From assembly GCF_900113765.1 (NCBI RefSeq), contig NZ_FOQO01000014.1, positions 1-64,000 on the forward strand: a stretch of 64,000 nt of DNA, written 5' to 3'. Under the pieces are notes generated by a model. That model had not been told where the DNA came from and did not search any database. It worked only from the letters and a program-made list of their open reading frames with translations. Positions 1,956-23,324 of this stretch are shown one piece after another. Position 1 is the first letter of the stretch, and the number at the start of each line of letters is the position of its first letter. The translations under genes were made by a program, and so were the position numbers. The DNA comes from Parapedobacter indicus. GTDB taxonomy: Bacteria > Bacteroidota > Bacteroidia > Sphingobacteriales > Sphingobacteriaceae.

Positions 1956-2024
1956 TTTTTTTACGACCACTAAGGGTATTTGGCGTTTGCCGCAACTCTT
2001 TACTTAAACACAAAGGTAGCCTTA

Positions 2025-2981: not shown

Positions 2982-3020
2982 TCTATGTATCTACTTTATC
3001 CAACGTAACTCATCCGACCC

Positions 3021-3062
3021 AAAAAAAACCCGGTGCCTCGTCGCCAAACTTAGTCACCGGGT
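3021..3062. terminator. Hairpin between fecR and the receptor gene
   Basis: ACCCGGTG (3028-3035) and CACCGGGT (3055-3062) are a perfect 8-bp inverted repeat. Eight A residues lie on the left side, so only a minus-strand transcript would have the hairpin followed by a U-run. No minus-strand gene ends here. On the plus strand it could still act as an attenuator or processing site ahead of the receptor start at 3080. Confidence 0.45.
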
Positions 3063-3079
3063 GCTTTGCAATTGACAAC

Positions 3080-5722
3080 ATGCGTAAAATCAAATTACAA
3101 GTTACCAAAAATATGAAATCTTTACTAGCTATCGTCCTTTTCCTGTTATCCACTCTATCGTTAACGTTCGGCCAAACCGACATCCTCCAACAACGTGTCT
3201 CGCTGCAGTTGGGTCCAACCACCGTAGCACAGGCACTCGCAGCCATTGAACGCGAAACCGGGTATGAATTATTGTATAGCGCCAATCAGCTGGATACCCA
3301 ACGCCAAATCAACGTATCCTTTTCAAACATGCCGCTTAAGCAGGCGCTGGAGCAACTGCTGGGTGATGCCGTAAACAGCATCCGCGTGGAAGGCAAACGC
3401 ATTCACTTCCAGCCTTCACAGGGCAAAGGTTCGGTACGGGGCACGGTGCTGACCAGTGATGGCCAGCCTGCCGGCTACGTTACGGTAAACATCCGCGGGC
3501 AGGGATCTACCCAGACCGATGAGCTCGGCCGATTCACGCTGGACCGCATCGAATCCGGTTTGCATACCCTGGAGGTAAGTTATGTAGGCCTGTTGCCCAA
3601 GCGTGTCTCGGTGAGCGTCGCTGCCGGTTCCAGTGCCGAAGTACAGGTGCAGCTTACTGAAAATGCACAATCGTTGGCTGAGGTCGTCGTTACCGGCCAA
3701 CGGCGTAAAACAGCATCCATCACCAAATCGGATGTCGCCCTGCTGGATATTCCCCTGTCCATCCAGGTGGTAGACAAAACCCTCCTGGAGCAGCAGCTGA
3801 TTTTTGACGTACGCGACGCGATCAAGAACGTGAGCGGAATCACCAATGTAGGCACCTATGCAGGGGGGTATGCCGATTACAACGGACGCGGATTTGCGAT
3901 GAACGGGAGCAGCAATTTCAGGCGCAATGGCTTATACATGAACAATCTGAGCCACCTGTATAATGACAATATCGAACGCATCGAGGTGATGAAGGGGCCG
4001 GCATCGGTGATGTATGGCGATATCGCGCCCGGCGCGGTCATGAACTTCGTCACGAAAAAGCCACTGGATTATGCCTACCGCCAATTTGAGATGAAAGTGG
4101 GCCAATACGGGCTCTTCAGACCCAGCTTTGACCTCTCGGGTCCGCTGGACGATGAGCACAAGTTGCTTTACCGCATCAATGCCAGTTATGAGCGTTCGGG
4201 TAGTTTCATCGACCACGTCAATAACCAATCGCTGTTATTCACGCCCAGCGTCACCTGGAAAATCACGCCCCGGCTGTCTTGGAATGTGGAGGCACTGTTC
4301 AAAAACGACGAGCGCACGCACAATCCCGGCGTCGTGTCGCCAGACGGCACCACAGCTACACTAGACCAACTTCCGTTGAGCCGTTACCTAGGAGAGCCCA
4401 ACAACCAGTTCCGTTATCGGGAAACCAGCGTTTATTCCTACATCGATTTCGAACTGAATGCGAATTGGAAAATTCGGAACAGCACACATTACTACAACCT
4501 GCAGGACCGTGTGGAAGGCACCTACTTTCCGTTAACGGTTCCGGATGCTTCGGGCAACATTGTCCGTAGCACCTGGATGACCAACTTCTTCCCGTCGGGT
4601 TGGGGCAACAACCTCGACCTGATGGGCGAGGTTAAAACCGGCCCGATAAAACACGCGCTGTCAGTAGGCGTAGACTACCTGCGCAATGAGAACGGATACA
4701 ATTCGGTGATGAGTCAAGAGATGGAGCCGATCAACATCTTTACGCCTGAATACGGGCTTACCGAGGTAATACGGAGCAATTCGTACCCCGGTCAGGAAGG
4801 TCCGCGACAGTTCTTTTCGCGTACGGGCGTTTACCTGCAAGACCAGCTCTCGGCGCTTGATAACCGCGTGCATCTGTTTGCAGGCCTCCGGTACAACTTT
4901 ACCTCGCGTGGTACGGAGTATGCCGAAACAAGTCCGGCCCCTCCTGCTTACAAACAAGACGACAAAAACCTGCTGAGCCCGCGTGTCGGATTGGTGGTCA
5001 AGCCCAAAGAATGGCTGTCGGTATACGGCTCGTATTCGCAGTCGTATGAACAGAATGGGCAAGACATGCTCACGGGGCAGCTCATCGACCAAACCGATGC
5101 CGATCAACTTGAGGTTGGTGTAAAAACCAGCCTCTTCCGCGATCGGCTGGGTATTGGTTTCGCTGCCTTCCAGATCAACAAGGAAAATGTATTCGGCTAC
5201 GTGTATGGGCTGGCCGAAGAACCTACGTTCCCGCACCTGTGGTACGACCCCGATACGAAAATCGCTTCGTATACCGGTGCGCACCACCGTAGCCGTGGAC
5301 TGGAACTGGATGTGAACGGAATTGTCGCCCCCGGCCTGAATGTGAACCTGGCCGCCTCGATTATCGATGCGCGAGTGGTACAGGATCCTGCCTTCGAAAG
5401 TGGCAATCAGCTTTCGGGCAATGCCCGCAACACGTTAAACATCTGGGCCAACTACCAGATTCAACGCGGCACACTGCAAGGGCTGTCTGTGGGCTATGGA
5501 TTCTTTTACAAAGACAAATTTTATGGCAATACCAACAATGCCCCCGGCCAACTGATTGGATCGTTCTGGACCATGGACGCTTCGGTGGGTTACCGCTTCC
5601 GGCATTTCTTTGTTCGGGGCAATTTCACCAACTTCACCAACCAAGTGGGCTACCTCGGTACCGGTCGATACACCCCGCAATGGGTTAGGCGGGCGATCCT
5701 CAGTTTTGGCACACAGTTTTAA
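3080..5722 (+). CDS. TonB-dependent siderophore receptor with STN signalling domain
   Basis: An 880-residue outer-membrane receptor, FecA/FpvA type. In order: signal peptide (to about residue 31), STN secretin/TonB N-terminal domain (about 40-110), a carboxypeptidase-regulatory-like beta domain (118-192), a TonB-box-like EVVVTG (201-206), plug domain (about 220-345, with IERIEVMKGPASVMYG), then a 22-strand barrel ending in a terminal phenylalanine. It imports a ferric chelate across the outer membrane using TonB energy. The STN domain passes occupancy to FecR. The start may instead be the Met at 3113, which gives a tighter signal peptide. The ligand cannot be inferred. Confidence 0.93.
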   Translation: MRKIKLQVTKNMKSLLAIVLFLLSTLSLTFGQTDILQQRVSLQLGPTTVAQALAAIERETGYELLYSANQLDTQRQINVSFSNMPLKQALEQLLGDAVNSIRVEGKRIHFQPSQGKGSVRGTVLTSDGQPAGYVTVNIRGQGSTQTDELGRFTLDRIESGLHTLEVSYVGLLPKRVSVSVAAGSSAEVQVQLTENAQSLAEVVVTGQRRKTASITKSDVALLDIPLSIQVVDKTLLEQQLIFDVRDAIKNVSGITNVGTYAGGYADYNGRGFAMNGSSNFRRNGLYMNNLSHLYNDNIERIEVMKGPASVMYGDIAPGAVMNFVTKKPLDYAYRQFEMKVGQYGLFRPSFDLSGPLDDEHKLLYRINASYERSGSFIDHVNNQSLLFTPSVTWKITPRLSWNVEALFKNDERTHNPGVVSPDGTTATLDQLPLSRYLGEPNNQFRYRETSVYSYIDFELNANWKIRNSTHYYNLQDRVEGTYFPLTVPDASGNIVRSTWMTNFFPSGWGNNLDLMGEVKTGPIKHALSVGVDYLRNENGYNSVMSQEMEPINIFTPEYGLTEVIRSNSYPGQEGPRQFFSRTGVYLQDQLSALDNRVHLFAGLRYNFTSRGTEYAETSPAPPAYKQDDKNLLSPRVGLVVKPKEWLSVYGSYSQSYEQNGQDMLTGQLIDQTDADQLEVGVKTSLFRDRLGIGFAAFQINKENVFGYVYGLAEEPTFPHLWYDPDTKIASYTGAHHRSRGLELDVNGIVAPGLNVNLAASIIDARVVQDPAFESGNQLSGNARNTLNIWANYQIQRGTLQGLSVGYGFFYKDKFYGNTNNAPGQLIGSFWTMDASVGYRFRHFFVRGNFTNFTNQVGYLGTGRYTPQWVRRAILSFGTQF

Positions 5723-10816: not shown

Positions 10817-13423
10817 ATGAAAAAATGGATGAAAATAGGCATGCCTACTCAGATCGGACTAGCCTTACTAATCGTAACAGCACTGGGCTGTAAGAAGGAC
10901 CCAGCGCTTAGGCAGAATGATGAAGAACCTGCTTACCACGCCGGCGATTATACAACGGTCAATATGCGAATCGTCGCACCCGATGGTTCAAACCTCGATC
11001 TGACAAAGGCGAAGGTTTATTCCTCGAATATTCCGCTGGAAGTCGGCGCAGACGGATCGGCAGAAGTGGTCAGTCTGCCAGGGTATCATACCGCTGCCTT
11101 TGTATTTGACCGACAAGATAATTTGGTGCTGGCCGGATTTGTGACAGACACCGCATCTGTCTTATCAGCAGCCACTACGGCGGAGGTACTGATGTATTAT
11201 GGCTTAGGCATCCCCTTTTTACCCGAAGAGGTCGCAGACCTTTATATCAATGGGGCGGACAAGCTACCGTTTATGGCCGATTTTAAGAAAGCCATAGCAG
11301 AACTGTATAAAAAAGACAACCAATTGCTGAATACGGGCAGTTTCGCGGAGGTCTTGGCACGAACCGTTTCGGATTTTCAGGCAACTGCCGAGGCGCAATC
11401 GGCACGCACGGGAAATGCAGGTAAGAAAGACCGGATTGCAGCGACGCAACGGGTGGCAGACCTGTTTATTGATGGGGACATCAAGAGCGGTTTGCAGGTT
11501 GCCCAAAGCGGACTGGGAAGTTTTACCATCACCAACACATATCGCCGCCGCGCGCATGCATTTATTTATAAGACCGATTACAAAGATTTGGCAGGCCAGT
11601 CGGTAAACATACTTCAGTCAATTGGCGGAGATGTAAAAGCGACAAAAGATATCGCCATCGGATCCACTGCGGGAATCACCGGATTTTTGAGTGTCATACT
11701 GGCTTATATTGCAGACAAGGATTCGGAATTCGCAGCGACAACCACCGAGGCGGCTGAGCTGCCTTTGTTGGAAAGCGAATCTGAAGCGACTTACCGCGTT
11801 AAAGTCATCGGACCTGGCAGTGAATCGCCAGGCGCCAAGACACAGGATGAAATCTCGGCGGGTGTGAGGCTGCAACTCGAAACCATGGCATTTGATTTTG
11901 TGATACCCCTGATTTCGGATATCATTGGTCTCAAGGATTTTGTCAAGAAGAAAGACTTATTTGCCGAAGACGACGGAGGAAATATCTGGGAAGAAGTCCT
12001 GAATAAAACGGCGACGTTTATTGGTATGGTTCCAGCAGCAAAAGCGGAGATGGATAAGGGTAGGTATGACCTGGCAACAAAGGAGCTATTTTGGGCACTC
12101 GGCAACAAGATTGCTGAAGACCAGGCGAATGATATGATGCAAGCCATTACAAAAACCTTGATGGATCGCGTTAAAAACGCCGCTATCCCTGGAGCGGATA
12201 AACTCGACGACGTATTGATGAACAGTCAATTGACACGGAAAATAAAGATTATGCAGGCATTGGATTTTATCATGAAGGCGGTGGATTATGGCCGGCTGAT
12301 CCACGATATCAGCACTTCCAAATCCGTTGAAAACTGGGAGGTTATCGCATTGCCCGTTGAAGTAAACCTGGAGCCCGGAAGCTCGGTGATTAGCGTATTG
12401 GAACAAATAAAACTGACCGCTAACCTGAAAACGACCGTAGCAGACGCTGAAGTGGTGGCTTACGAATGGAAAACAACCGGGAAATACGGATACCTCTGGG
12501 ATGATCGCGGACACAAGGGAAATGAATTTACAAGCTCGATAAAGGATGTGTATTATTTGTCTGACGCGATGGCGAGTGACCTCAGCGCCGGCGACAACTG
12601 GGAGTACATTTACGTAAAAGCCTACTTGGGTGATAAGCTGATTGGGACGGATTCGGCACGGATCAACGTGAAGCAAAGCCTCTATGAGATGAAACCGGAT
12701 AACGTAACATTGACGGGAAGGAAGCGTGGTTCAAACAACAACGTGAACCAGAATGAAGTAAGGCTACACCTCGAGGCCATTGACCCCAACAGCTCCGCCG
12801 CCATCGCACCGAATAGCGAAAGGGAATACAAAGTGGTCTGGACGACCGCCGGGGAACACGGCGGGCTCTATGGTCGGGAAAATACGACACCAGCCACGAC
12901 TTTAACAACCTACGACGAGAACTCGATATGGTATGAGTGTACAGACGATCAAACGCTCAGCGCAACCGAAAATATCACTGCGCAGATCTATTCGCGGGCA
13001 AAAAACACCGATGAGGAATTTATGTTGTTCAATGTAGCAACAGGAATGGTATACATAGACAACGATCCGAAGAAAATCATACTCCACATGCCGGTAACGT
13101 GTCAACACGGGGATACGACTTACAATGAAGGCAAATCAATGACCTGTATGATCACCAGCTTCGTATCGTTCGAAGGAGAGGAAGACGCCAGTTCGTACAG
13201 TGTGCGGTTCTACGATGTGAGATGGCCTAATACGTACTTTTGGTACGCTGGCTCCCGGCAGCCTTCGCAGGTGAGCGGTTATGTTTTCAAACCCGCTGCA
13301 GGTTCTTTTGCTGTCGCTTATGGTTCCTCATGGGCGGTCGGCGCGCCAAGTCAGATTACGGAGCATTTCAGTTGCGGTTCCGGTTCGGGGGGGATGGCGC
13401 AAATAACGATTACGTTAAAATAG
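10817..13423 (+). CDS. Large lipoprotein with tandem Ig-like repeats, unknown function
   Basis: 868 residues, not recognised. Lipobox VTALGC at about residue 25 marks it as a lipoprotein. An N-terminal beta region (about 45-120) resembles a carboxypeptidase-regulatory fold. It is followed by a long, mostly helical middle (about 130-510) that includes one hydrophobic patch (GSTAGITGFLSVILAYIA). The C-terminal third has two similar Ig-like units, each opening with a W-x-T-x-G-x-x-G-x-L pattern (from residues 550 and 674). A Cys-containing tail follows. It ends 76 nt before the ECF sigma gene at 13500 on the same strand, so it may belong to the CHAT cassette. Confidence 0.75.
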   Translation: MKKWMKIGMPTQIGLALLIVTALGCKKDPALRQNDEEPAYHAGDYTTVNMRIVAPDGSNLDLTKAKVYSSNIPLEVGADGSAEVVSLPGYHTAAFVFDRQDNLVLAGFVTDTASVLSAATTAEVLMYYGLGIPFLPEEVADLYINGADKLPFMADFKKAIAELYKKDNQLLNTGSFAEVLARTVSDFQATAEAQSARTGNAGKKDRIAATQRVADLFIDGDIKSGLQVAQSGLGSFTITNTYRRRAHAFIYKTDYKDLAGQSVNILQSIGGDVKATKDIAIGSTAGITGFLSVILAYIADKDSEFAATTTEAAELPLLESESEATYRVKVIGPGSESPGAKTQDEISAGVRLQLETMAFDFVIPLISDIIGLKDFVKKKDLFAEDDGGNIWEEVLNKTATFIGMVPAAKAEMDKGRYDLATKELFWALGNKIAEDQANDMMQAITKTLMDRVKNAAIPGADKLDDVLMNSQLTRKIKIMQALDFIMKAVDYGRLIHDISTSKSVENWEVIALPVEVNLEPGSSVISVLEQIKLTANLKTTVADAEVVAYEWKTTGKYGYLWDDRGHKGNEFTSSIKDVYYLSDAMASDLSAGDNWEYIYVKAYLGDKLIGTDSARINVKQSLYEMKPDNVTLTGRKRGSNNNVNQNEVRLHLEAIDPNSSAAIAPNSEREYKVVWTTAGEHGGLYGRENTTPATTLTTYDENSIWYECTDDQTLSATENITAQIYSRAKNTDEEFMLFNVATGMVYIDNDPKKIILHMPVTCQHGDTTYNEGKSMTCMITSFVSFEGEEDASSYSVRFYDVRWPNTYFWYAGSRQPSQVSGYVFKPAAGSFAVAYGSSWAVGAPSQITEHFSCGSGSGGMAQITITLK

Positions 13424-13439: not shown

Positions 13440-13499
13440 CACAGGACCGCGAGTTTATGAGATAATACGTTAAATTAGCCGGATACTTTTGAGTATAAT

Positions 13500-14072
13500 A
13501 TGGATCAACTCGAAGCCCGGCAATTTCCAGCGCAAGTGTTTGCTCGTAAGCTGAAATCAGACGACGATAATTTATTAGCGATGTTGTACACGGATAATTA
13601 TGCGCACCTGGAACGTTATGTATTGAAAAACGGCGGGACAGGAGACGAGGCGAAGGACGTCTATCAGGAAGCGTTTATCGCGGTTTGGCGCAATATCCAA
13701 TTGGATCGATTTTCGCCTGCCACCGAGGCCGAGTTTGGCGCATACCTGATCCGCGTGGCAAAAAATAAGTGGATCGACGAACTGCGAAGGAATAAAAACA
13801 TACGTATGGTATCGGTTGATGAAAAACATGAAGCTGATATTGTTGCTCAAAACGATGGAAACGAAACCGACACCTACATTGACGCTGTGAAAAAACAATA
13901 TCGGCATCTGGGCGCGCGTTGCCGTGAGTTGCTGGGAAGGTTTTACTTTCACAAGCAAAGTTTGCGGGAGATTGCGGAGGCGTTTGATTGGACGGAACCG
14001 AGCGCGAAGAACAACAAGTACCGTTGTCTGAAGCAATTGCGCGAACTGGTGCTCGGGAAAGGAATGAAATAA
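13500..14072 (+). CDS. ECF RNA polymerase sigma factor of the CHAT cassette
   Basis: A 190-residue sigma-70 family protein. Region 2 is at about residues 30-100 (GDEAKDVYQEAFIAVWRNI, then LIRVAKNKWIDELRR). Region 4 is at about 135-185 (LLGRFYFHKQSLREIAEAFDWTEPSAKNNKYRCLKQLREL). The region 4 variant DWTEPSAKNNKYRCLKQL is typical of the Bacteroidota ECF factors found beside TPR/CHAT genes. Its stop overlaps the next start (TAATG), so the anti-sigma-like protein is translationally coupled to it. Confidence 0.9.
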   Translation: MDQLEARQFPAQVFARKLKSDDDNLLAMLYTDNYAHLERYVLKNGGTGDEAKDVYQEAFIAVWRNIQLDRFSPATEAEFGAYLIRVAKNKWIDELRRNKNIRMVSVDEKHEADIVAQNDGNETDTYIDAVKKQYRHLGARCRELLGRFYFHKQSLREIAEAFDWTEPSAKNNKYRCLKQLRELVLGKGMK

Positions 14073-14821
14073 TGGAAAAGTTACCTCCATATGACCTGCC
14101 GGGAAATGAACTCGCTTACATCAGCGATTACTTAAACGGTGCATTGGACGCGAGTGCGCAACGGGCATTTGAGGAACGCCTGCACAGAGACCCTTTGTTT
14201 AAGCAAAAAGTAGACGAGGTACGTTGGCTGCTGGTTGGCGTACGGGAGGCCAATCTTGCCGAACAGTTGGATTCCTTTCATGCTGTATTGCCGGGCAACA
14301 AGGAGGAAGTCACCCATACGAAAGCTTTTAGGCGACAAATGACATGGCTGGCGGCCGCTATACTGGTATTTGGGATCGTCGGCGCCTGGCTATTTTGGTC
14401 GAGGCAAACACCGGAGCAACGGCTATTCAGCCAGTACTATCGGGCAGATCCGGGATTACCGACGCTGATGGGGCCATCAGACGATTATGCGTTTGAAGAG
14501 GCCATGGTTGACTACAAAACTGGAAACTTCCGGAAAGCGATAGATAAATGGCGCCCACTGTTAGCAGACGGACGGGAAAACGATACGTTGAATTATTTTA
14601 TCGGCGTCGCTTATCTGGCGGCCAATGAGCCGGACTCCGCCACAATGTTTCTCGATCATGTCGTTGGCATATCGGCGTCGGCATTCCGTTCGGATGCTCA
14701 CTGGTATAAGGCATTAGCCTTGCTAAAGCAGGGCCAGAGCGAGGCTGCATTAAAGGCATTGAGGCATACGGAACACCCCGCAAAAGACGCGCTGCTGCAT
14801 GCCATAAAAATACTTCCATGA
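14072..14821 (+). CDS. Membrane anti-sigma-like protein with periplasmic TPR domain
   Basis: 249 residues. The N-terminal about 88 residues are soluble and include an anti-sigma-like start (LAYISDYLNGALDASAQRAFEERLHRDPLF). One transmembrane helix follows at about residues 91-109. The C-terminal part is helical with TPR-like pairs (KTGNFRKAIDKWRPLL, NYFIGVAYLAANEPDSATMFLDHV, HWYKALALLKQGQSEAALKAL). The start is the ATG overlapping the sigma stop by one base. Inferred role: hold the sigma factor at the membrane and sense the periplasm through the TPR part. Its stop overlaps the CHAT gene start by 4 nt (ATGA). Confidence 0.8.
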   Translation: MEKLPPYDLPGNELAYISDYLNGALDASAQRAFEERLHRDPLFKQKVDEVRWLLVGVREANLAEQLDSFHAVLPGNKEEVTHTKAFRRQMTWLAAAILVFGIVGAWLFWSRQTPEQRLFSQYYRADPGLPTLMGPSDDYAFEEAMVDYKTGNFRKAIDKWRPLLADGRENDTLNYFIGVAYLAANEPDSATMFLDHVVGISASAFRSDAHWYKALALLKQGQSEAALKALRHTEHPAKDALLHAIKILP

Positions 14822-17800
14822 GACGTCGGGTATGTGTATCGCTTGGGCTTGTCATCGCACTCCTGACAATGGGGATAGCACAGGAGGCACAGGAAAAAAC
14901 AACGATACAAAAACTCTTGGATGCCAATAAGATTGCCCGGGCGGACCAGTTGATCAAACAAAAAATAGCTTTTTTTACCCAACGACAGCAGACCGATTCT
15001 TTGGCAGCTTACGTTGGCTTGGTTAGCGATATTGCTGAGAAAAAGGGCGGTACGGCATTTGCAAAACAGCAGACGGAGCAACTGGTCCAGAAAATCGAGT
15101 CAATCGGGGCGTCGCCGGCCGTATTACGCGAGGCGTTTGCCAACCTGGGGGAATTCTACGGCGCAACCGGCGACAACAAGCGCGCCTACGAGGCGCATTT
15201 ACGTTCGCTTTCTTTTGCTCAGCAGTCGGAAGATAAGTCCGCAGAACGGATGGCGCTTATCCAGCATAACCTTGGAGAGTATGCCCGACGCATGGCGAAT
15301 CCGGACCGCGCGCGCGAACATTTCCTCACGGCAACTTCCTTGATATTGCAACAACCTCATGCCAATCAAAAGCAACTTTACCAGACGTTTATGTCGCTCG
15401 GCATATTGTCATGGTACGCCTCTAAACTGGACAGTGCCGAGTATTTTTTCAACAAATCCATCGAGGCGGTGCAGCGAATCGATGACTCACCGGTAACTAA
15501 ATATTTCCGGCAGGCGCTCCTCTTGAATAATTTAGCAGGGGTTTACGGTCTTCAGGGCCGGACCGCCGAAGCAATCCGCTCCATGGAAAGCTGCATCGCA
15601 TTACTGCGGGAATTTTTGTCGGTTCCGGATGATGCAGACAAGAAGAGGCAAGCGCTGACACTCCAGTTTGAGGCGATTGACAACCTTGGAGGCGCATACA
15701 AGGAACTCGGAAATTACGCCAAGGCTGAGCAACTTTTAAGCTATTCGTTTGAACAGAAAAAACAATGGCTTCAGGCAGATGACCCAGCGATTTTTATTTC
15801 GCATATTCTGCTGGGACAACTGTATTACGCAACATCGGATTACAAAAAGGCGATTGAATACCTTACCGAAGGTAGGCAGGGAATTGCCGAAACTGATGCA
15901 GATTATCTTTTTTGGGATGCAGATGCATGTTATACCCTGGCCATGATCCAAGAGAAACAGCAAGCGAACGGATTGGCGGAGACCTACTACCGGAAAGCGG
16001 ATAGCTTATATGCACTGGCTTTCGGCGATACATACGACAATATTTACCTGGAATTTTTACGCAAGTATGCGTCTTTCCAGGCAAAGGTCGGTCAGTGCGA
16101 AACCGCAACGACTCTCGCTGTTAAGACACAGCGGTATGTAAACAACGCAGGCAACGAGCGATCGCTACTCTCATTTTATCAACTTCAGCATCTCGGTGAG
16201 CTGGCATTTGAATGCGGGGATTTTCAACGGGCGCATGATTATGCACACCAGGCATTAACTGAAATCAACAGATTTGTCCGACAAAGTACCACCTTGGAAG
16301 ACTCCATCAAAACAGAAGGTGAAAAGGTATACCCCATACTGACCCGTGCAAGGGCGTCTTATGAACTTTCGCCGACTAAGCACGCGGAAGAGCTGCAATC
16401 GCTGCTTTGTGAGTTGAGCGACGCAACCGAAATCATTGAACGTAAAAAGCGGTTATTGACCGACCAGAAAGATATTGTTGCGCTTATTGCCAGCTATCAG
16501 GCGGTAACCGACTTCATCAAGCAGCTTCATTTTGAAATATACCTAAAAACGAACGACAGCACCCATCTCAATAAAGGGCTGAATGTCCATGAGGAGGGAA
16601 TCTATTCGCGTTTGCGATCGCGCATGGATTACCAGCGTGCCATGCGATTTACCAACGTTCCCGATTCCGTGGTAGACCAAGAGAATCGGCTTAAGGAGAA
16701 CATCCGGGCAAGCCTTCAGCAAAATCTTAGCAACGAGGGGGCGGTTCGCTCTTATAGGCATACCGTTGATAGTTGGCACGCATTTTTGAAAAAACTACAG
16801 CGGCAATACCCCGCATATTACCGGATGCGCTACGCGGATGAACGCATTGCCTTGCGTAGAATCGGCGAATCGGTGCCGGCAGGTGTGACCGTTATCCGGT
16901 ACCTTTCGTCTGGCGAAAAGCTCTTTGCCTTCGTTGCTTCTGCTACGCAATGGGCCCTCGTACCACTTTCCAGCGATGGCTTGTCGGGATACGTGCAGAC
17001 GCTACGCGATTTCGGGCAAAAGGATCAGCGGATGCTAAAAGCAGCCCATCAGCTGTATAAGGTGCTGTGGCAACCTTTGGAATCATCGATTACCGGTAGT
17101 CGGGTAATCGTAATCCCCGATGGGCTATTGCATCATGTCAGTTTCGACATGCTGGTACCTAAGCCAATTGGCAGTTTAAGAGAGTTGAAGAACACGTGCC
17201 TGTTGAACAAGTATGCCATATCTTATCACTACAGTTTATTGGCATTGGAAAACGAAGCATCCTCTTCTGGGGCTATGAAAGCCAATTTTGTGGCATTTGC
17301 CCCAATCTTTTCCGATCGCAGTAAATCAACTTATTTAGCGCATGCGCAAAAGGACTCGTTACACATGGACCGCACATATGCCAAACTGCTACCCTTGCCC
17401 TTTACTGCCAAATTGGTGCAAAAAATGCAGCGGGAATTTGGCGGCAACTTATTTATGGAAAACGAATCCACTGCCCAGGCGTTTCGTTTGAATGCAGCAT
17501 ACCATCGCATTATCCACATTGGCACGCATGCGGAAGCCAACAACGATTACCCCGAATATTCGCGCTTGATTTTCATGAACGACGGAACGGAAGGAGCTGA
17601 AAATTCACTTTACTTATACGATATCTACAACTGTGACCTTACTGCTAATATCGCGGTATTGGCCGCCTGTGAGACTGGTAAATCCGGCCACCTCGACGGT
17701 GAAGGTATGATATCGTTGGCTCATGCTTTTCGTTATGCAGGCAGCGAAAGTATTCTAGCCGGCCTTTGGAAGATCGACGAGCAATCAAGTACAATGATCA

Positions 17801-18099
17801 TCCGATCATTTTACGAGAACTTGCGTGCGGGGGTACCCAAAGACGTAGCGCTTCAACGTGCAAAATTAGCGTATCTTAGTGATGCGGGAGGCCGCCTGTT
17901 TTCCCCCCGGTATTGGGCCGGACTCGCTATTCTAGGGAATGTTGATCCGGTGGTGTTCAAGCCATCGACACCTATTTGGCACTTAGTTGCGGGTGTATTC
18001 GGTATAGCATTATTCTTGGCTGGCGCTATCGTGCACAGGAAGGCAAAGCGTAATGCTTTTTCTTCGACAAGATTCAACCGGAAAAGTGATCTCAGTTAG
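14818..18099 (+). CDS. TPR-CHAT protease, periplasmic and membrane-anchored
   Basis: 1093 residues. Signal peptide at residues 1-21 (cleavage near GIAQ-EAQ), then tetratricopeptide repeats over about residues 90-480, a helical linker, and a CHAT (caspase HetF-associated with TPRs) domain at about 740-1045. The catalytic pair is visible: His904 in IIHIGTHAEAN and Cys951 in VLAACETGKSG. A single C-terminal transmembrane helix (about 1053-1073) with a basic tail would leave TPR and CHAT in the periplasm. CHAT domains are separase/caspase-like cysteine peptidases. ATGA overlap with the TPR anti-sigma gene suggests that this protein is the natural substrate or partner. No downstream gene is coupled. 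Confidence 0.9.
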   Translation: MRRRVCVSLGLVIALLTMGIAQEAQEKTTIQKLLDANKIARADQLIKQKIAFFTQRQQTDSLAAYVGLVSDIAEKKGGTAFAKQQTEQLVQKIESIGASPAVLREAFANLGEFYGATGDNKRAYEAHLRSLSFAQQSEDKSAERMALIQHNLGEYARRMANPDRAREHFLTATSLILQQPHANQKQLYQTFMSLGILSWYASKLDSAEYFFNKSIEAVQRIDDSPVTKYFRQALLLNNLAGVYGLQGRTAEAIRSMESCIALLREFLSVPDDADKKRQALTLQFEAIDNLGGAYKELGNYAKAEQLLSYSFEQKKQWLQADDPAIFISHILLGQLYYATSDYKKAIEYLTEGRQGIAETDADYLFWDADACYTLAMIQEKQQANGLAETYYRKADSLYALAFGDTYDNIYLEFLRKYASFQAKVGQCETATTLAVKTQRYVNNAGNERSLLSFYQLQHLGELAFECGDFQRAHDYAHQALTEINRFVRQSTTLEDSIKTEGEKVYPILTRARASYELSPTKHAEELQSLLCELSDATEIIERKKRLLTDQKDIVALIASYQAVTDFIKQLHFEIYLKTNDSTHLNKGLNVHEEGIYSRLRSRMDYQRAMRFTNVPDSVVDQENRLKENIRASLQQNLSNEGAVRSYRHTVDSWHAFLKKLQRQYPAYYRMRYADERIALRRIGESVPAGVTVIRYLSSGEKLFAFVASATQWALVPLSSDGLSGYVQTLRDFGQKDQRMLKAAHQLYKVLWQPLESSITGSRVIVIPDGLLHHVSFDMLVPKPIGSLRELKNTCLLNKYAISYHYSLLALENEASSSGAMKANFVAFAPIFSDRSKSTYLAHAQKDSLHMDRTYAKLLPLPFTAKLVQKMQREFGGNLFMENESTAQAFRLNAAYHRIIHIGTHAEANNDYPEYSRLIFMNDGTEGAENSLYLYDIYNCDLTANIAVLAACETGKSGHLDGEGMISLAHAFRYAGSESILAGLWKIDEQSSTMIIRSFYENLRAGVPKDVALQRAKLAYLSDAGGRLFSPRYWAGLAILGNVDPVVFKPSTPIWHLVAGVFGIALFLAGAIVHRKAKRNAFSSTRFNRKSDLS

Positions 18100-18371: not shown

Positions 18372-18884
18372 ATGAACAAAATAGAATTCAGTAACAAGGT
18401 CGTACAAGAAATAGCTTCTCTCAACAGTTATGCGTTCCATTTTACCCGAGACAACGAAAACGCCGATGACCTGGTTCAAGACACCATGCTTAAGGCTTTT
18501 TCTTATTATAACAAATTCCGGGAAGGAACCAATTTGCAAGCTTGGCTTTATACCATATTGAAGAATACGTTCATCAATTACTATCGTAAGCAGGTCAAGA
18601 CAAATGCCATAATGATCAAGACCGATACGATTTCCTCATCCGATTTATATAAGAGTTCTTTCCGAAACAGCGCTGAAGGAAAGTTCATAATGAAAGACAT
18701 CGAATGTGCATTATCCAAACTTTCTGCTGAATATTACGAACCTTTTACCATGTATTTCGAAGGTTACAAATATCATGAAATTGCAGACCAGTTCCAGATT
18801 CCGATCGGTACGGTAAAAACCCGCATCCATGTTGCGAGGCAGCAGCTCAAGAAAAAGCTTAAAATATATGCCAAGAGCAAATGA
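18372..18884 (+). CDS. ECF RNA polymerase sigma factor
   Basis: 170 residues. Region 2 has NENADDLVQDTMLKAFSYYNKF and LQAWLYTILKNTFINYYRK; region 4 has YHEIADQFQIPIGTVKTRIHVARQQLKKKL. This subtype resembles the EcfG-like general-stress ECF factors. There is no anti-sigma gene next to it. The nearest neighbours, 120 nt downstream, are a single-domain receiver and a stressosome operon, so it may be the transcriptional output or target of that system. The 272 nt upstream of it hold no gene. Confidence 0.88.
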   Translation: MNKIEFSNKVVQEIASLNSYAFHFTRDNENADDLVQDTMLKAFSYYNKFREGTNLQAWLYTILKNTFINYYRKQVKTNAIMIKTDTISSSDLYKSSFRNSAEGKFIMKDIECALSKLSAEYYEPFTMYFEGYKYHEIADQFQIPIGTVKTRIHVARQQLKKKLKIYAKSK

Positions 18885-18971
18885 AACAGCGAAGCGCCCA
18901 CCGATAAGTTTGAGCAAGTCTCGGACTCTTTAGAAAATGTAAATGAAAAATAGTTATCTGAATAATTGCGT

Positions 18972-18979
18972 TATATTTG
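18972..18979 (+). promoter_or_regulatory. Putative -7 box for the stressosome operon
   Basis: TATATTTG matches TAnnTTTG, 28 nt before the receiver start at 19008. It would begin a transcript covering the receiver through the histidine kinase. Confidence 0.4.
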
Positions 18980-19007
18980 TTTTCGCTTTTCTTTAGGGAC
19001 TTTTTGC

Positions 19008-19418
19008 ATGAAAAAACAAATTTTGTACGTCGAGGATGACGGAGATATGTTGGAAGTGGTAGCCGAATTTATGCAGTTTGAAGATTATCATGTAATCACT
19101 GACGGCGGCAAATCCATTGACAAAAAAATAAAGCAACATGCGTTTGGACTGATTTTGTTGGATGAAAATTTAAATTGGGGATGGGGCAGCGATCTTTGCC
19201 GTGTACTGAAATCCGACGAAAAAACCGCAAACATTCCCGTGGTGCTCATCTCCGCTATCCGGAACATCGATGAAATCGCCGAGCAATGTGGCGCAGACGC
19301 GTATATTCGCAAGCCATTCGATATTTATGACGTGATTGACGTCGTCAATGAGCACTATCTGGATCCGCCAACCATTACCCAAGCTGGTCAACCGGCATCC
19401 GGCACAACAATCGACTGA
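19008..19418 (+). CDS. Single-domain response regulator (receiver only)
   Basis: 136 residues, a complete CheY-like receiver. Visible: the acidic pocket (VEDDGDML), the phosphoacceptor Asp in LILLDENL, the conserved Ser (VLISAIR) and the Lys of YIRKPF. There is no output domain. An unusual tryptophan-rich loop (NWGWGSDLC) follows the phosphoacceptor. I chose the ATG at 19008, which gives the usual MKKQILYVEDD start. It is the first gene of the stressosome operon and a probable phosphorylation partner of the kinase at 22131. A close paralogue is encoded at 26481-26855. Confidence 0.92.
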   Translation: MKKQILYVEDDGDMLEVVAEFMQFEDYHVITDGGKSIDKKIKQHAFGLILLDENLNWGWGSDLCRVLKSDEKTANIPVVLISAIRNIDEIAEQCGADAYIRKPFDIYDVIDVVNEHYLDPPTITQAGQPASGTTID

Positions 19419-19437
19419 TTACTTTTTATCGAATTAT

Positions 19438-20316
19438 ATGGCTATTCAGATTACCAAAATCTTTAAGAAAAAAAAAGCGTCTATCCTGGAACGTTGGATG
19501 CAAAACCAATTGGCCCATGTCGGTTTGCGTGAAGATTTAATCAGCAATGACGACCTTCGTGCAGATTCGTCTGAACTCATCGTTACACTACTGGACACTC
19601 TGAATGAGAAAAACCTCGACGATCCGGACTCGAGCGACTTCGATCCGGTCGTTGAACTTCTCAACAGCCTCTCTTTATCGCGGGCCCGGCAAGGTTTCAG
19701 CCCTCGTGAAACCGGATTGTTTATCATCGGCTTGAAAGAAGTGCTCATCGGCGTGCTTCAGGAAGAAATAATTGATCACAAAGAATTAGCTGATCTAAGT
19801 TTAAAAGTCCACCGGCTTTTGGACAATTTCTCCATAAGCACCTTCGAGGCTTATATCAAGGGACGTGAGGAAGTGATCTTAAGACAGACGGATGAAATTG
19901 CAGAAATATCTACTCCGGTGATACGCGTTTGGGATGGCATATTGGCGCTTCCTATTATCGGTACGCTCGATAGCGCTCGGACACAGGTCATCATGGAGAC
20001 CTTGCTTACCGAAATTGTTGAATCGGGCAGTAGTATAGCCATTCTAGATATATCTGGAGTACCCACCGTTGATTCGTTGGTTGCACAGCATCTGCTGAAA
20101 ACCGTCAGCGCCACCCGACTGATGGGTGCTGAATGTATTATCAGCGGCATACGGCCCGAGATTGCCCAAACCATCGTACATCTGGGCATCGACCTCGCTA
20201 CGATCATTACCAAATCTACGTTGGCAAGCGCCTTGCAACACGCTTTCAAGTCGCTTCGTCTTGAAGTGCGCCAGCAGCGTATCGATAGTGTTTTATCGCG
20301 CGTTAAACCTCAGTAG
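19438..20316 (+). CDS. rsbR: RsbR-like stressosome sensor/scaffold protein
   Basis: 292 residues. The N-terminal about 150 residues are an RsbRD-type helical (non-haem globin-like) domain starting with ILERWMQNQLAH. The C-terminal STAS domain includes GVPTVDSLVAQHLLKTV and the signature GAECIISGIRPEIAQTIV. In the B. subtilis family the two kinase-target threonines lie in these segments. Here the first is a serine (Ser213 in TVDSLV) and the second is kept (Thr245 in IAQTIV). The start is the ATG at 19438, 19 nt after the receiver stop. It should form the stressosome core with the RsbS next to it. Confidence 0.9.
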   Translation: MAIQITKIFKKKKASILERWMQNQLAHVGLREDLISNDDLRADSSELIVTLLDTLNEKNLDDPDSSDFDPVVELLNSLSLSRARQGFSPRETGLFIIGLKEVLIGVLQEEIIDHKELADLSLKVHRLLDNFSISTFEAYIKGREEVILRQTDEIAEISTPVIRVWDGILALPIIGTLDSARTQVIMETLLTEIVESGSSIAILDISGVPTVDSLVAQHLLKTVSATRLMGAECIISGIRPEIAQTIVHLGIDLATIITKSTLASALQHAFKSLRLEVRQQRIDSVLSRVKPQ

Positions 20317-20323
20317 CATTGGT

Positions 20324-20731
20324 ATGGACAAGATTCCTATTTTGAGAATGGGTCGGTTTCTACTCGTTACCATTCAGGTGGATTTATACGACAAACTAGC
20401 ACTAGACTTGGAAGCCGACTTGATAAAAATGGTGGGAAAGACCAATGCACGCGGTATTTTGATTGATATTTCGGCTGTAAATATTGTCGATTCGTTTATG
20501 GGCCGTATTATCAGCAATATCGGGGCCATGGCGAAACTGGTTGATGCAGAGACCGTCGTGGTAGGTATGCAACCTGCTGTAGCCATTACCTTGGTGGAAC
20601 TGGGGCTACCGTTAAGAGGTGTGTATACGGCATTGAATGTCGAAAAAGGGATGGATCTTCTGAAATCCAAGGTTCTAAGGGAAGAAGAAACAGATCCCGA
20701 TGATGATTACGCCGGTGATTCTTCTGTCTAA
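20324..20731 (+). CDS. rsbS: RsbS-like STAS-domain stressosome scaffold
   Basis: 135 residues, a single STAS domain. The conserved phosphorylatable serine is Ser57 in NIVDSFMGRIISNIG, matching the RsbS signature. It begins 7 nt after rsbR, and its acidic tail (EEETDPDDDYAGD) is encoded in DNA that overlaps the start of rsbT by 32 nt. In the known system RsbS and RsbR form the large scaffold that holds RsbT until stress triggers phosphorylation of both. Confidence 0.92.
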   Translation: MDKIPILRMGRFLLVTIQVDLYDKLALDLEADLIKMVGKTNARGILIDISAVNIVDSFMGRIISNIGAMAKLVDAETVVVGMQPAVAITLVELGLPLRGVYTALNVEKGMDLLKSKVLREEETDPDDDYAGDSSV

Positions 20732-21125
20732 GGACAACATGACCGTCTTGCGCGAGCAGGATGTGGTCCCCTTCCGTAACCGCGTGAAGGAGTATGCGAT
20801 CAAAATCAGGATGGGTTTGGTTAATCAGACCAAACTGATTACGGCTGCAAGCGAGTTGGCTCGTAATATGCTTAAATATGCCAATGGGGGTATCGTGTCT
20901 ATTGAAACCATTGCACGCGGCAGAGAGTCGGGAATACGGCTTACCTTTAAAGACGAAGGACCTGGCATTGCAGACGTCAATCTTGCCTTAAAAGACGGCT
21001 TTTCCACCGGTAAAAGTTTAGGGCTAGGATTGCCAGGGGCACGGCGTTTGGCTAGCGAATTTGAAATCAACAGCGAAATCGGCAAAGGCACTAAGGTGAT
21101 GATCATTAAGTGGGCAAATGGTTGA
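20700..21125 (+). CDS. rsbT: RsbT-like serine/threonine kinase (GHKL)
   Basis: 141 residues. The GHKL ATP-binding fold shows an N box (AASELARNMLKYANGG), G1 (FKDEGPGI) and G2 (GKSLGLGLPGARRLASEF). RsbT phosphorylates RsbR and RsbS, then leaves the stressosome to activate a partner. Two start codons, at 20700 and 20703, are possible; both lie inside rsbS, giving an overlap of about 30 nt and implying coupled translation. The gene ends 8 nt into the next one. Confidence 0.92.
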   Translation: MMITPVILLSKDNMTVLREQDVVPFRNRVKEYAIKIRMGLVNQTKLITAASELARNMLKYANGGIVSIETIARGRESGIRLTFKDEGPGIADVNLALKDGFSTGKSLGLGLPGARRLASEFEINSEIGKGTKVMIIKWANG

Positions 21126-22134
21126 TGCTACGCATAAAAGTTTCGACGCTTCCGATCGAAGCCGTCATGCGCTGATCAAAAAAGAAGTGCAGCGGCTCGC
21201 TGTTGCATGTCAATTTGCCGATAAGCGGATAGCAGAAATTGATATCGTAGTTGCTGAAATTACCTCCAATTTTAACAAGCACGCCAAAGGCGGAGAGCTA
21301 TTGATTGGTTGCTTCAAGGAAGATGGCTTGGTCTATATAGAGTTAATCGGAATCGACCAAGGTCCTGGAATGAACGATGTCCACCGGATGATGGCCGATG
21401 GCTTTTCCACAAAAAACACCTTGGGACACGGCCTGGGTAGTATCAAGAGACTGGCCGACGAGTTTGACGTTTTTTCAATGAAAGACTGGGGGACTGTCCT
21501 ATTGGCGCGCTTTTTCCGCATTTATAAGCCGTTGGAAAAACGAAAAAGACGCATTCATGTTAGACCACTTATCGTGGCCAAACCCATGGAGATACGAAGC
21601 GGAGATGGTTATTATGTAGACCATTCCGACCGCTATACCAAAATCATGCTTGCCGACGGGCTGGGACATGGCGTCGAAGCGAATATTGCTATCAACCAGG
21701 CCGTCAGCGCTTTTAAGCAATGTCCGTATCAATCGCCCGTTGAAGTTATCCGTTTTATCCACCCACGGGTTCGGAAAACCCGTGGACTTGTGGCAACAGT
21801 GGTGGTAATAGATCACGATTTGAAACAGTTACGGATTGCCGGCGTTGGCAATATCTCGGCAAAACTTTTTGGAATCAGCTATTCCAAAAAGCCCCTTCCC
21901 TACAACGGTATTATCGGCCACAATATCCCTAACACCATGCACGACCAAGTGTTGGATTTACAGGTCTATCAGCAACTCATCCTTTGTTCAGACGGAATCC
22001 GTTCACGTTGGGACACCAGTCGAATGGCCACACTGACGCGTCACGACCTGAGCATCCAGGTGGCGGCAGTATATAAAGAATTCGCTCGACGCACTGATGA
22101 CATGTCCGTGCTGATCGCAAAATTTACCGCATGA
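21118..22134 (+). CDS. RsbT-like / RsbX-like fusion: GHKL domain plus PP2C phosphatase
   Basis: 338 residues. Residues 1-135 form a second GHKL ATPase (VVAEITSNFNKHAKGG, IDQGPGM, TLGHGLGSIKRLADEF). Residues about 150-338 form an RsbX/SpoIIE-type PP2C phosphatase (LADGLGHGVEANIAI, GLVATVVVIDHDLKQLRIAGVGNI, LILCSDGIRSRW, RTDDMSVLIAKF), keeping the metal-binding aspartates. RsbX resets the stressosome by dephosphorylating RsbR and RsbS, and here it is joined to a kinase-like module. Overlaps rsbT by 8 nt and the next gene by 4 nt. Confidence 0.88.
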   Translation: MVDATHKSFDASDRSRHALIKKEVQRLAVACQFADKRIAEIDIVVAEITSNFNKHAKGGELLIGCFKEDGLVYIELIGIDQGPGMNDVHRMMADGFSTKNTLGHGLGSIKRLADEFDVFSMKDWGTVLLARFFRIYKPLEKRKRRIHVRPLIVAKPMEIRSGDGYYVDHSDRYTKIMLADGLGHGVEANIAINQAVSAFKQCPYQSPVEVIRFIHPRVRKTRGLVATVVVIDHDLKQLRIAGVGNISAKLFGISYSKKPLPYNGIIGHNIPNTMHDQVLDLQVYQQLILCSDGIRSRWDTSRMATLTRHDLSIQVAAVYKEFARRTDDMSVLIAKFTA

Positions 22135-23324
22135 TTGAACTTGCCACCATTACCCTTGAAAATGAGATGGATTTAATCTTGGCGTACAAGCGTTCCATTC
22201 GTACGGCTGAATTGCTGGGCCTTACCAAATCCACGCAGACTGTCTTCGCTACTGCGGTTTCTGAAGTGTGCCGGGAAGTCAATGACAAGGCCTTTGAAGG
22301 TATTGTACATTTAGGAACGATGGCAACGGGCAGTCGTTATTTTATCAGCGCACGGATAACAGGACGGGTAGACGAATTGTTTCCGAGCAATGCTATCGGT
22401 ATTGAATATGCGCGAAAGCTGGTGCCCGTCTTGGAGTTTCTGCCCGACGGCGAGCGCCTTCAGATTGTCTTGAAATTAAGTATCCCCTATTCCGCACGGG
22501 TAACATCGACGAAAATTGCAGCGGTGCGTAGACAACTGAAAGATGAAGGCCCGATCAGTGCCTATGAAGAAATTAAAATCAGAAATGCGGCGTTATCTCT
22601 CCAAAAAGAGCAACAAGAATTGGCCCTACGGAGTGCGACCTATTTAAACCAGCAAAAAAACGAATTCCTTTCCGTTGCCAGCCATGAACTCAATACACCA
22701 CTGACTGTATTGCGATCCTATGCGCAGATCGCCTTGCGGGAAAGCAAGGACGGCCCGCTCACAAAATACCTATCTAAAATTGAACTCCAGTCTATTAAAT
22801 TAGGTGCGCTGATCAGTCAGCTATTGGACATCTCAAAGATTGAAAACGGTAAAATGACCTACGAGAAAGAGGTAACAGCAGCTTCGTCGTTCCTTGCCGG
22901 CTGCATAGAGGGAGGGCACCTGCTTTTTCCTACGCACGACTTAGTCGTGGACATCGACTGTAACTGTTATATATTGATTGATCCGATCCGTATCGAACAG
23001 GTGATTAATAATTTACTTTCAAATGCTGTAAAATATTCCGAGCCGGGACCCGTTCGCATAACTACACAGGTGGATGGACGTTTTCTGACCATTTCAGTCG
23101 CTGATGCAGGTATCGGAATGTCCGAGGATACACAAGCGCAGGTTTTCGATAAATTTTTCCGCAGTACGCACACGGCTAATACGCATCGTGGACTGGGTAT
23201 CGGACTGTATATCACTTCACAGATTGTAAACGATCATGGCGGATCCATACAGATTAAAAGCGCCTTGGGCCAGGGCACAACCATGTCGGTTGTATTGCCG
23301 ATAGTAGAAGCACCCGTCGAATGA
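22131..23324 (+). CDS. Sensor histidine kinase with degenerate RsbT-like N-terminal domain
   Basis: 397 residues, no membrane segment. Residues about 1-130 look like a worn GHKL domain of the RsbT type (TAVSEVCREVNDKAFEGIVHL aligns with the N box of the two preceding proteins), then a coiled linker. HisKA has His185 in VASHELNTPL, and a full HATPase_c follows (QVINNLLSNAVKYSEPG, VADAGIGM, HRGLGIGLYIT). It ends the stressosome operon with an ATGA overlap and is the likely target of freed RsbT. It would then phosphorylate the receiver encoded at 19008 or at 26481. It replaces the sigma-B output of Bacillus. Confidence 0.88.
   Translation: MIELATITLENEMDLILAYKRSIRTAELLGLTKSTQTVFATAVSEVCREVNDKAFEGIVHLGTMATGSRYFISARITGRVDELFPSNAIGIEYARKLVPVLEFLPDGERLQIVLKLSIPYSARVTSTKIAAVRRQLKDEGPISAYEEIKIRNAALSLQKEQQELALRSATYLNQQKNEFLSVASHELNTPLTVLRSYAQIALRESKDGPLTKYLSKIELQSIKLGALISQLLDISKIENGKMTYEKEVTAASSFLAGCIEGGHLLFPTHDLVVDIDCNCYILIDPIRIEQVINNLLSNAVKYSEPGPVRITTQVDGRFLTISVADAGIGMSEDTQAQVFDKFFRSTHTANTHRGLGIGLYITSQIVNDHGGSIQIKSALGQGTTMSVVLPIVEAPVE

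Follow-up and report, generated by a model that had tools for sequence, protein, structure and literature searches.

The locus considered here raises a simple question: what is a predicted protease of the CHAT family doing beside a sigma factor and its putative inhibitor? The window, by which we mean the whole 64,000 nucleotide stretch of Parapedobacter indicus DNA that was analysed, corresponds to contig C28 in a genome of 6.16 Mb. Within it, three overlapping genes encode an extracytoplasmic function (ECF) type sigma factor, a membrane protein predicted to be its anti-sigma factor, and a large protein combining tetratricopeptide repeats (TPR) with a CHAT domain. Gene neighbourhoods across Bacteroidota leave us confident that sigma factor, anti-sigma factor and CHAT protein form one signalling unit. 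As to how the unit works, we give an even chance to a CHAT protein that serves as a periplasmic protease, gated by a signal and directed at the anti-sigma factor.

Three overlapping genes and their products

The cassette comprises the following genes.

13500-14072, + strand: ECF-type sigma factor, 190 amino acids (passes the cut-offs of TIGR02937 and PF04542, but not those of region 4 models)
14072-14821, + strand: putative membrane anti-sigma factor with a predicted periplasmic TPR tail, 249 amino acids (follows the sigma gene; has a single span; TPR profile match; weak antisigma match; AlphaFold2 model m5dd6d4a8f815)
14818-18099, + strand: predicted periplasmic TPR-CHAT protein with a C-terminal membrane anchor, 1093 amino acids (PF12770, TPR_12, model m30ae7c20191e)

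An initial annotation, made from the sequence alone, had described overlaps of 1 and 4 nucleotides, and positions read directly from the sequence agree. Thus, the last A of the sigma stop codon (TAA, 14070-14072) is also the first base of the anti-sigma start codon (ATG, 14072). Similarly, the anti-sigma stop codon (TGA, 14819-14821) lies within the 4 nucleotide overlap that opens with the CHAT start codon (ATG, 14818). Note that a mechanical list of open reading frames (ORFs) starts the anti-sigma gene at a TTG (13988), giving 277 amino acids; the ATG at 14072, giving 249, was chosen here. The products were also described correctly. Profile matches, hydropathy and models bear out an ECF sigma factor, a one-span putative anti-sigma factor with a TPR tail, and a protein with signal peptide, TPRs, CHAT domain and C-terminal anchor.

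The first product is a clear ECF-type sigma factor with a weak region 4. In profile searches it scored 74 bits against TIGR02937 (cut-off 42.9) and 56.9 bits against PF04542 (cut-off 24), while region 4 models gave 17 bits at best, under their cut-offs. We recognised the middle protein as an anti-sigma factor by its position, single span and TPR tail; inhibition of the sigma factor is predicted. Its NCBIfam 'antisigma' match is weak (28.5 bits against a cut-off of 100) and its TPR_16 match (E 5e-6) falls below the cut-off. Hydropathy identifies a single hydrophobic span at residues 90-108. The AlphaFold2 model, built from an 18-row alignment, has a mean predicted local distance difference test score (pLDDT) of 86.9. 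It contains N-terminal helices at residues 11-71, one helix that covers the span (85-110), and TPR helices at 139-246. The parts map to the DNA as follows.

14102-14284, + strand: predicted cytoplasmic N-terminal helical domain, residues 11-71 (AlphaFold2 helices 11-21, 27-39 and 41-71)
14339-14395, + strand: anti-sigma transmembrane segment, residues 90-108 (hydropathy; model helix 85-110)
14486-14809, + strand: predicted periplasmic TPR tail, residues 139-246 (VIA-align 2 fold match)

The tail superimposed on the TPR domain of YbgF (2xev_B) with a Z score of 15.3 and a root mean square deviation (rmsd) of 1.6 over 112 residues in VIA-align 2. The N-terminal helical domain presumably binds the sigma factor. 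The fold search with the anti-sigma model was filled by TPR domains. Likewise, with our anti-sigma profile, A2, the best 60 of 152 rows were all helical-repeat chains (TPR and a few PPR). The N-terminal 129 residues gave a best E of 0.22 against PDB sequences.

The third protein carries the predicted enzyme. It matched PF12770 at residues 741-1041 with 149.1 bits (cut-off 24; E 2.4e-43, or 2.5e-44 on the genome) and TPR_12 with 78 bits, and has hydrophobic segments at residues 5-23 and 1053-1071. The relevant features are these.

14830-14886, + strand: signal-peptide hydrophobic core, residues 5-23 (hydropathy; the A1 consensus here ends in AQ)
17038-17940, + strand: CHAT domain, residues 741-1041 (PF12770)
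17527-17529, + strand: His904 codon, catalytic His by homology (alignment)
17668-17670, + strand: Cys951 codon, catalytic Cys by homology (alignment)
17974-18030, + strand: C-terminal membrane anchor, residues 1053-1071, then a basic tail (hydropathy)

His904 and Cys951, already singled out in the initial annotation, are invariant in a 16-row alignment. Both residues are also kept in 183 of 183 CHAT proteins aligned there; the set holds 184 non-redundant proteins, one of which did not align. Note that 100 of the 183 came from sequences not selected by pattern around the Cys. The AlphaFold2 model, from a 16-row alignment, has a mean pLDDT of 75.5, falling below 50 at residues 953-961, just after Cys951. 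Residues 576-1049 of the model aligned with separase (5fby_A; Z 21.2, rmsd 3.5 over 312 residues), as expected of a separase/caspase-like fold. Foldseek ranked human separase first and 8rw5, a structure of the anti-sigma factor DdvA, second (E 8.6e-12). The only PDB sequence matched by the CHAT region was 8rot ('CHAT domain-containing protein', residues 857-979, E 0.0017). Profile, His-Cys pair and modelled fold all point to membership of the CHAT peptidase family, and proteolysis is predicted.

Association of the three genes across Bacteroidota

We found CHAT domains in 190 of 392 Bacteroidota genomes. Within the family of P. indicus, searching with the window protein at E 1e-10 gave matches in 17 of 81 genomes (its own included). 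The P. indicus genome has three CHAT genes. Aside from that in the window, one (on C8) has a paralogous sigma/anti-sigma pair placed tail-to-tail. The other lies on C16, in a fetched stretch of roughly 4 kb whose listed ORFs include no evident sigma gene.

Neighbourhoods were compared in stretches fetched around CHAT genes (80), at named loci (80), around anti-sigma relatives (40), and at control positions on CHAT-bearing contigs (20). The phylum sample (L083-L138) consists of 56 stretches, one per genus, with 58 CHAT genes of at least 700 amino acids; control ORFs had at least 200. This sample was hand-picked among the best-scoring matches, 100 genera having a match. Hence, weak CHAT proteins are under-represented. 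A sigma/anti-sigma pair lies no more than one gene from 18 of the 58 CHAT genes, compared with 0 of 159 control ORFs (Fisher 5e-12). Control stretches were taken at chosen places and one, L292, proved to hold a CHAT gene. With L292 kept, the control counts are 3 of 164 ORFs with a pair no more than one gene away and 1 of 164 touching. The pair directly touches 15 of the 58 CHAT genes. For comparison, ORFs of these loci at a distance of more than three genes from CHAT touch a pair in 6 of 139 instances.

The other samples were counted in the same way. A pair is at most one gene away from 13 of 22 CHAT genes in the family of P. indicus, and from 27 of 84 in the named set, whose 80 loci were selected by pattern around Cys951 and similarity to linked proteins. 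Viewed from the anti-sigma side, a CHAT gene is no more than one gene away in 22 of 40 loci, and two or three genes away in another 3. These 40 loci leave out eight top matches known to lie beside CHAT (window included), and one of them, L288, repeats L130. Since the A2 profile was built from anti-sigmas beside CHAT (at least 16 of 18 rows), the anti-sigma sample leans towards those.

Sigma/anti-sigma pairs are abundant, and adjacency by descent or chance would make the neighbourhood meaningless. Matches to Sigma70_r2 do number 10 to 103 per genome in the 26 genomes searched, with the maximum of 103 in G000. Even so, a pair accompanied 18 of 58 CHAT genes and 0 of 159 control ORFs, and the link is kept through several arrangements in many families. 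We consider descent or chance alone an extremely improbable explanation.

The initial annotation had supposed that the gene order may recur in Bacteroidota. The set does recur, as the counts above indicate, and this part of the claim holds. What is conserved is the association, rather than one order. Among 74 cassettes, 24 are tail-to-tail, 17 have sigma, anti-sigma and CHAT genes, in that order, on one strand, 17 are divergent with one gene between, and 16 are arranged otherwise. Of the 24 tail-to-tail cassettes, 17 have an anti-sigma gene and a CHAT gene whose 3' ends overlap, antisense, by 4-51 nucleotides. In four such loci, from different genera, this overlap is exactly 18 nucleotides (tail-to-tail examples include L068, L069, L112 and L136).

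Similar conclusions come from phylogeny. In a tree of 102 CHAT domains built with FastTree, linkage requires 11 changes of state; with shuffled labels the mean is 34. Arrangement, meanwhile, shifts a minimum of 16 times within the 52 linked rows. Hence, partners stay together while their order shifts. Note that 26 of 99 inner branches have support under 80, and that one CHAT gene (L059:15951) was scored as unlinked, here and in the anchor comparison below, because its stretch ended early; its cassette is in L060. We also swapped partners within each of 10 genomes having two to four cassettes. Distances between CHAT proteins and between anti-sigmas correlate at 0.49, compared with 0.32 +- 0.04 after swapping, and 0 of 2000 swaps were as high. 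Swapping in this way corrects for species history, but not for the fact that linked genes are inherited together.

In L144, L147, L148, L177 and L189, CHAT genes form tandem arrays of two to four. Those in L144 and L189 are beside a sigma/anti-sigma pair.

Predicted topology and related systems

Topology was assessed for 74 distinct linked cassettes, window included, using a crude test for signal peptides. Of the CHAT proteins, 57 passed this test and 60 have a C-terminal span, which is followed by a net positive tail in 58 of those 60. The mean net charge flanking the anchor, among linked relatives, is +3.8 after and -0.5 before. The anti-sigmas have exactly one span in 71 of 74 instances and, for 60 of those 71, the N-terminal flank is more positive than the C-terminal flank. 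Because of these spans, tail charges, flank charges and signal-peptide results, the CHAT protein and the anti-sigma tail most likely both face the periplasm. The initial annotation had placed them there too, and the predicted topology does not put CHAT in the cytoplasm.

We also considered the C-terminal anchor as a marker of linkage. In the phylum sample it is present in 12 of 18 linked and 7 of 40 unlinked CHAT proteins (Fisher 5e-4); pooled counts are 60 of 77 and 62 of 107 (0.007). The own-family and pattern-selected samples show no such difference, and the median p on the tree is 0.375 (not significant). The anchor was not used as support.

The initial annotation knew of no described function for such a cassette, and so overlooked two systems, Craspase and DdvA. 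In Craspase, according to passages of PMC10028731, the TPR-CHAT protease Csx29 cleaves Csx30, an inhibitor of the ECF-type CASP-sigma. Binding of target RNA repositions the Csx29 His and Cys, as the same passages describe. Both there and in the window, a TPR-CHAT protein, an ECF-type sigma factor and a sigma inhibitor are encoded together. The window CHAT model aligns with Craspase chains at Z 20 to 26, including TPR-CHAT chain 7y84_C (Z 26.4, rmsd 11.4 over 556 residues) and Csx29 chain 8eex_B (Z 25.2, rmsd 9.9 over 530 residues). However, Csx29 is activated by RNA through Cas7-11, whereas the window has a signal peptide, a membrane anchor and a membrane anti-sigma factor. The RAMP family (PF03787) has 0 matches in the P. 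indicus genome, and the Csx29 model scored 19.3 bits on the window protein, far under its cut-off of 300. Hence, the cassette is not a Craspase member.

The structural closeness to 7y84_C could still indicate a defence module, with the cassette a membrane relative of Craspase whose CHAT protein responds to phage attack. We regard this as very unlikely. PADLOC, run on the cassette proteins, matched nothing but a general TPR model, no RAMP protein was matched in the genome, and the CHAT protein is predicted to be periplasmic.

DdvA is the anti-sigma factor of DdvS, an ECF sigma factor of Myxococcus xanthus (passages of PMC4374960). The PDB entries 8rot and 8rw5 bear the title 'transmembrane anti-sigma factor' DdvA ('dimeric' in 8rw5), with the molecule named 'CHAT domain-containing protein'. 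We equate this DdvA with that of M. xanthus by the common name, and read it as one chain from title and molecule name. So read, DdvA is a transmembrane ECF anti-sigma factor with a C-terminal CHAT domain, to which the window CHAT protein is matched by sequence and by Foldseek. The difference is that DdvA joins anti-sigma and CHAT in one polypeptide, while the window cassette uses two genes. No such fusion was present among the CHAT proteins gathered.

A third comparison is with ECF54, for which the listed model is from Geodermatophilus. Passages of PMC8999054 report CHAT, subtilase or carboxypeptidase genes in its context and propose proteolytic control. Hence, CHAT genes again lie near an ECF sigma gene. 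ECF54 is described, in those passages, without an anti-sigma factor, whereas the window has a membrane anti-sigma-like gene overlapping the sigma gene. For the Bacteroidota cassette itself, no description was found in the open full-text literature, which leaves out subscription papers and bioRxiv preprints.

The RseA/DegS/RseP system of E. coli offers a final parallel. It combines a membrane anti-sigma factor, having a periplasmic part, with a protease on the periplasmic side, as proposed for the window. DegS is a PDZ serine protease, in contrast to the cysteine CHAT protein of the window, which has its own TPR domain and is encoded beside the sigma factor. The cassette is thus neither Craspase, nor strictly of the DdvA type (there are two genes), nor like ECF54 (an anti-sigma is present). 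If the model set out below is right, it would work like them.

The proposed switch, its alternatives and its setting

Our preferred reading is that the CHAT protein cuts the anti-sigma factor on receipt of a signal. In the resting state, the cytoplasmic helical domain of the anti-sigma factor would hold the sigma factor at the inner membrane, with the TPR tail and the anchored TPR-CHAT protein in the periplasm. A cue from the envelope or from outside the cell would be detected by the TPR superhelix of the CHAT protein, which might act together with the product of an upstream lipoprotein gene. This cue would align His904 and Cys951, as target RNA does in Csx29, and the activated CHAT domain would cut the anti-sigma factor on its periplasmic side. 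An RseP-type M50 peptidase, then cytoplasmic proteases, would remove the stub and free the sigma factor. The genome encodes one M50 peptidase, which could act downstream. Hence, the suggestion in the initial annotation, that the CHAT enzyme works in place of a DegS/RseP-type protease, is not borne out for the RseP-type step. Overall, the model suggests that the CHAT protease helps to switch the sigma factor on in response to something outside the cytoplasm.

Several observations weigh against cleavage of the anti-sigma factor by CHAT. Each partner often occurs alone, since 40 of 58 phylum-sample CHAT genes have no pair within one gene and 15 of 40 anti-sigma loci have no CHAT gene within the fetched stretch. 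Unlinked CHAT proteins keep the His-Cys pair too (107 of 107); therefore, conservation does not single out the anti-sigma factor as substrate. The crude signal-peptide test was failed by 17 of 74 linked CHAT proteins, and the difference in anchor frequency is confined to the phylum sample, losing significance on the tree. In Foldseek, the match to the DdvA fold reaches TM-scores of just 0.30 and 0.36, which are low. For only 32 of 74 cassettes is the nearest foreign cassette shared by CHAT protein and anti-sigma factor and, as linked genes share a history, the partner-swap result shows a stable unit rather than contact. Finally, comparison of a juxtamembrane motif between 77 linked and 16 unlinked anti-sigmas yielded no candidate cleavage site. 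The motif, LY..YF.PYPN..P..RG, conserved in the linker, is at least as frequent where anti-sigmas have no CHAT gene close by. Hence, we rejected it as a CHAT-specific recognition site. Operon-type anti-sigmas, including that of the window, are without the RG end.

The lack of a cleavage site that stands out would fit a CHAT protein that is a partner rather than a cutter. As a co-sensor or co-repressor, it would bind the anti-sigma tail through its TPRs and alter the grip on sigma, keeping any protease activity for another substrate. Anti-sigma and CHAT protein do both have TPRs and share a predicted compartment, and in DdvA the CHAT domain is within the anti-sigma factor itself. In addition, passages of PMC4374960 describe a DdvS-dependent promoter assayed in a strain lacking DdvA, which is also compatible with a structural role. 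However, His904 and Cys951 are kept in all 183 aligned proteins, and Csx29, a TPR-CHAT protein encoded with an ECF-type sigma factor, is a real protease acting on a sigma inhibitor (passages of PMC10028731). We judge a partner that does not cut the anti-sigma factor to be rather unlikely.

Alternatively, the CHAT protein may be an output. The sigma factor would control the CHAT gene, and the protease would be an envelope effector (for processing, remodelling or killing) outside the switch. The window CHAT gene is indeed third in an overlapping sigma set, and the divergent class usually has CHAT and another gene in an operon facing sigma. Conversely, in the tail-to-tail class, 24 of the 74 cassettes, CHAT lies on the strand opposite sigma, and the anti-sigma factor DdvA contains a CHAT domain. 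A DNA motif bears on the same point. The inverted pair GTWAAC...GTTWAC precedes the sigma gene in 7 of 24 tail-to-tail cassettes (L068, L069, L136, L194, L212, L251 and L252), but 0 of 195 CHAT genes. Elsewhere, it precedes 8 of 1737 other ORFs. The pair is a candidate site for self-regulation. Given these patterns, a role as output alone seems unlikely, and we return to cleavage of the anti-sigma factor as the preferred reading.

The window cassette has an upstream element.

13470-13485, + strand: conserved leader or promoter element TTAAATTAGCCGGATA, 14 nucleotides before the sigma ATG

Four genomes of the genus were searched for TTAAATTAGCCGGAWA, and each of the 4 contains a single exact match, always at the sigma gene of an operon-type cassette. 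With mismatches allowed, counts of TTAAATTAGCCGGAWA were not above the reversed control. Hence, no regulon was found by this route, exact matches being only at the cassette in each of the four genomes. A scan for sigma-70 promoters gave 3 sites, compared with 6.2 in shuffles; for terminators the numbers were 9 and 6.2.

A possible fourth part of the cassette lies directly before this element.

10817-13423, + strand: putative lipoprotein of 868 amino acids, lipobox LGC/KKD, possible fourth member (lipobox-like start)

No Pfam or NCBIfam family matched this protein at E 1. Relatives lie directly upstream of sigma in L059 (the second cassette of G003, a same-genus genome) and L253 (G269), and directly upstream of CHAT in L139 (Cognataquiflexum rubidum). 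Note that these three loci derive from stretches picked around CHAT or anti-sigma genes. Another relative is about 3 kb from a cassette (L327, G461), and that in L326 (G057) has no cassette within its 19.5 kb stretch. A whole-genome search of 60 relatives placed the lipoprotein in four genomes: that of P. indicus, G003, G057 and G461. More broadly, lipobox-like starts occur in 37 of 149 ORFs flanking or inside cassettes. The corresponding figures are 10 of 202 for control ORFs (Fisher 7e-8) and 26 of 215 for ORFs farther away in these loci (p 0.002); the pattern is crude, and some matches look doubtful. The lipoprotein could plausibly be an outer sensor, an inhibitor or a client.

Other cassettes have other secreted or outer-membrane families as neighbours. 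One divergent cassette has a secreted protein of about 660 amino acids between sigma and CHAT (L078:8102-10093), with PKD, DUF7619 and DUF7849 matches in Pfam, which was run on L078 only. By BLAST it has relatives in L076 and L266, and ORFs of like size occupy the same place in L079 and L081. A single family of secreted proteins with internal repeats (394-690 amino acids) occurs beside the differently arranged cassettes L122, L256, L257, L260 and L105. Within the window, the CHAT cassette adjoins a partner-switching (stressosome-like) module at 18372-23324. This encodes a second ECF-type sigma factor, then a response regulator, RsbRD/STAS and STAS proteins, an RsbT-like ATPase, a SpoIIE-type phosphatase and a histidine kinase. 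Further away, at 1407-5722, is a set comprising an ECF sigma factor, FecR and a TonB-dependent receptor.

We can offer a broader view tentatively, with less than an even chance of being right. Many Bacteroidota may share an envelope-signalling pathway whose site-1 protease is a membrane-anchored periplasmic CHAT enzyme of the caspase/separase-like kind. Gated by its TPR superhelix and receiving input from a lipoprotein sensor, this enzyme would serve a dedicated membrane anti-sigma factor. It would be a split, membrane counterpart of Craspase and DdvA, doing the job of DegS with an unrelated class of enzyme. The cassettes described here connect three separate findings, on Craspase, on DdvA and on CHAT genes in the vicinity of ECF54 sigmas, with a wide range of Bacteroidota. 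They suggest a general rule, that TPR-CHAT proteases control the inhibitors of ECF sigma factors, and provide a candidate function for many periplasmic TPR-CHAT proteins. If this is true, a caspase-like class of enzyme would join the site-1 proteases of transmembrane signalling.

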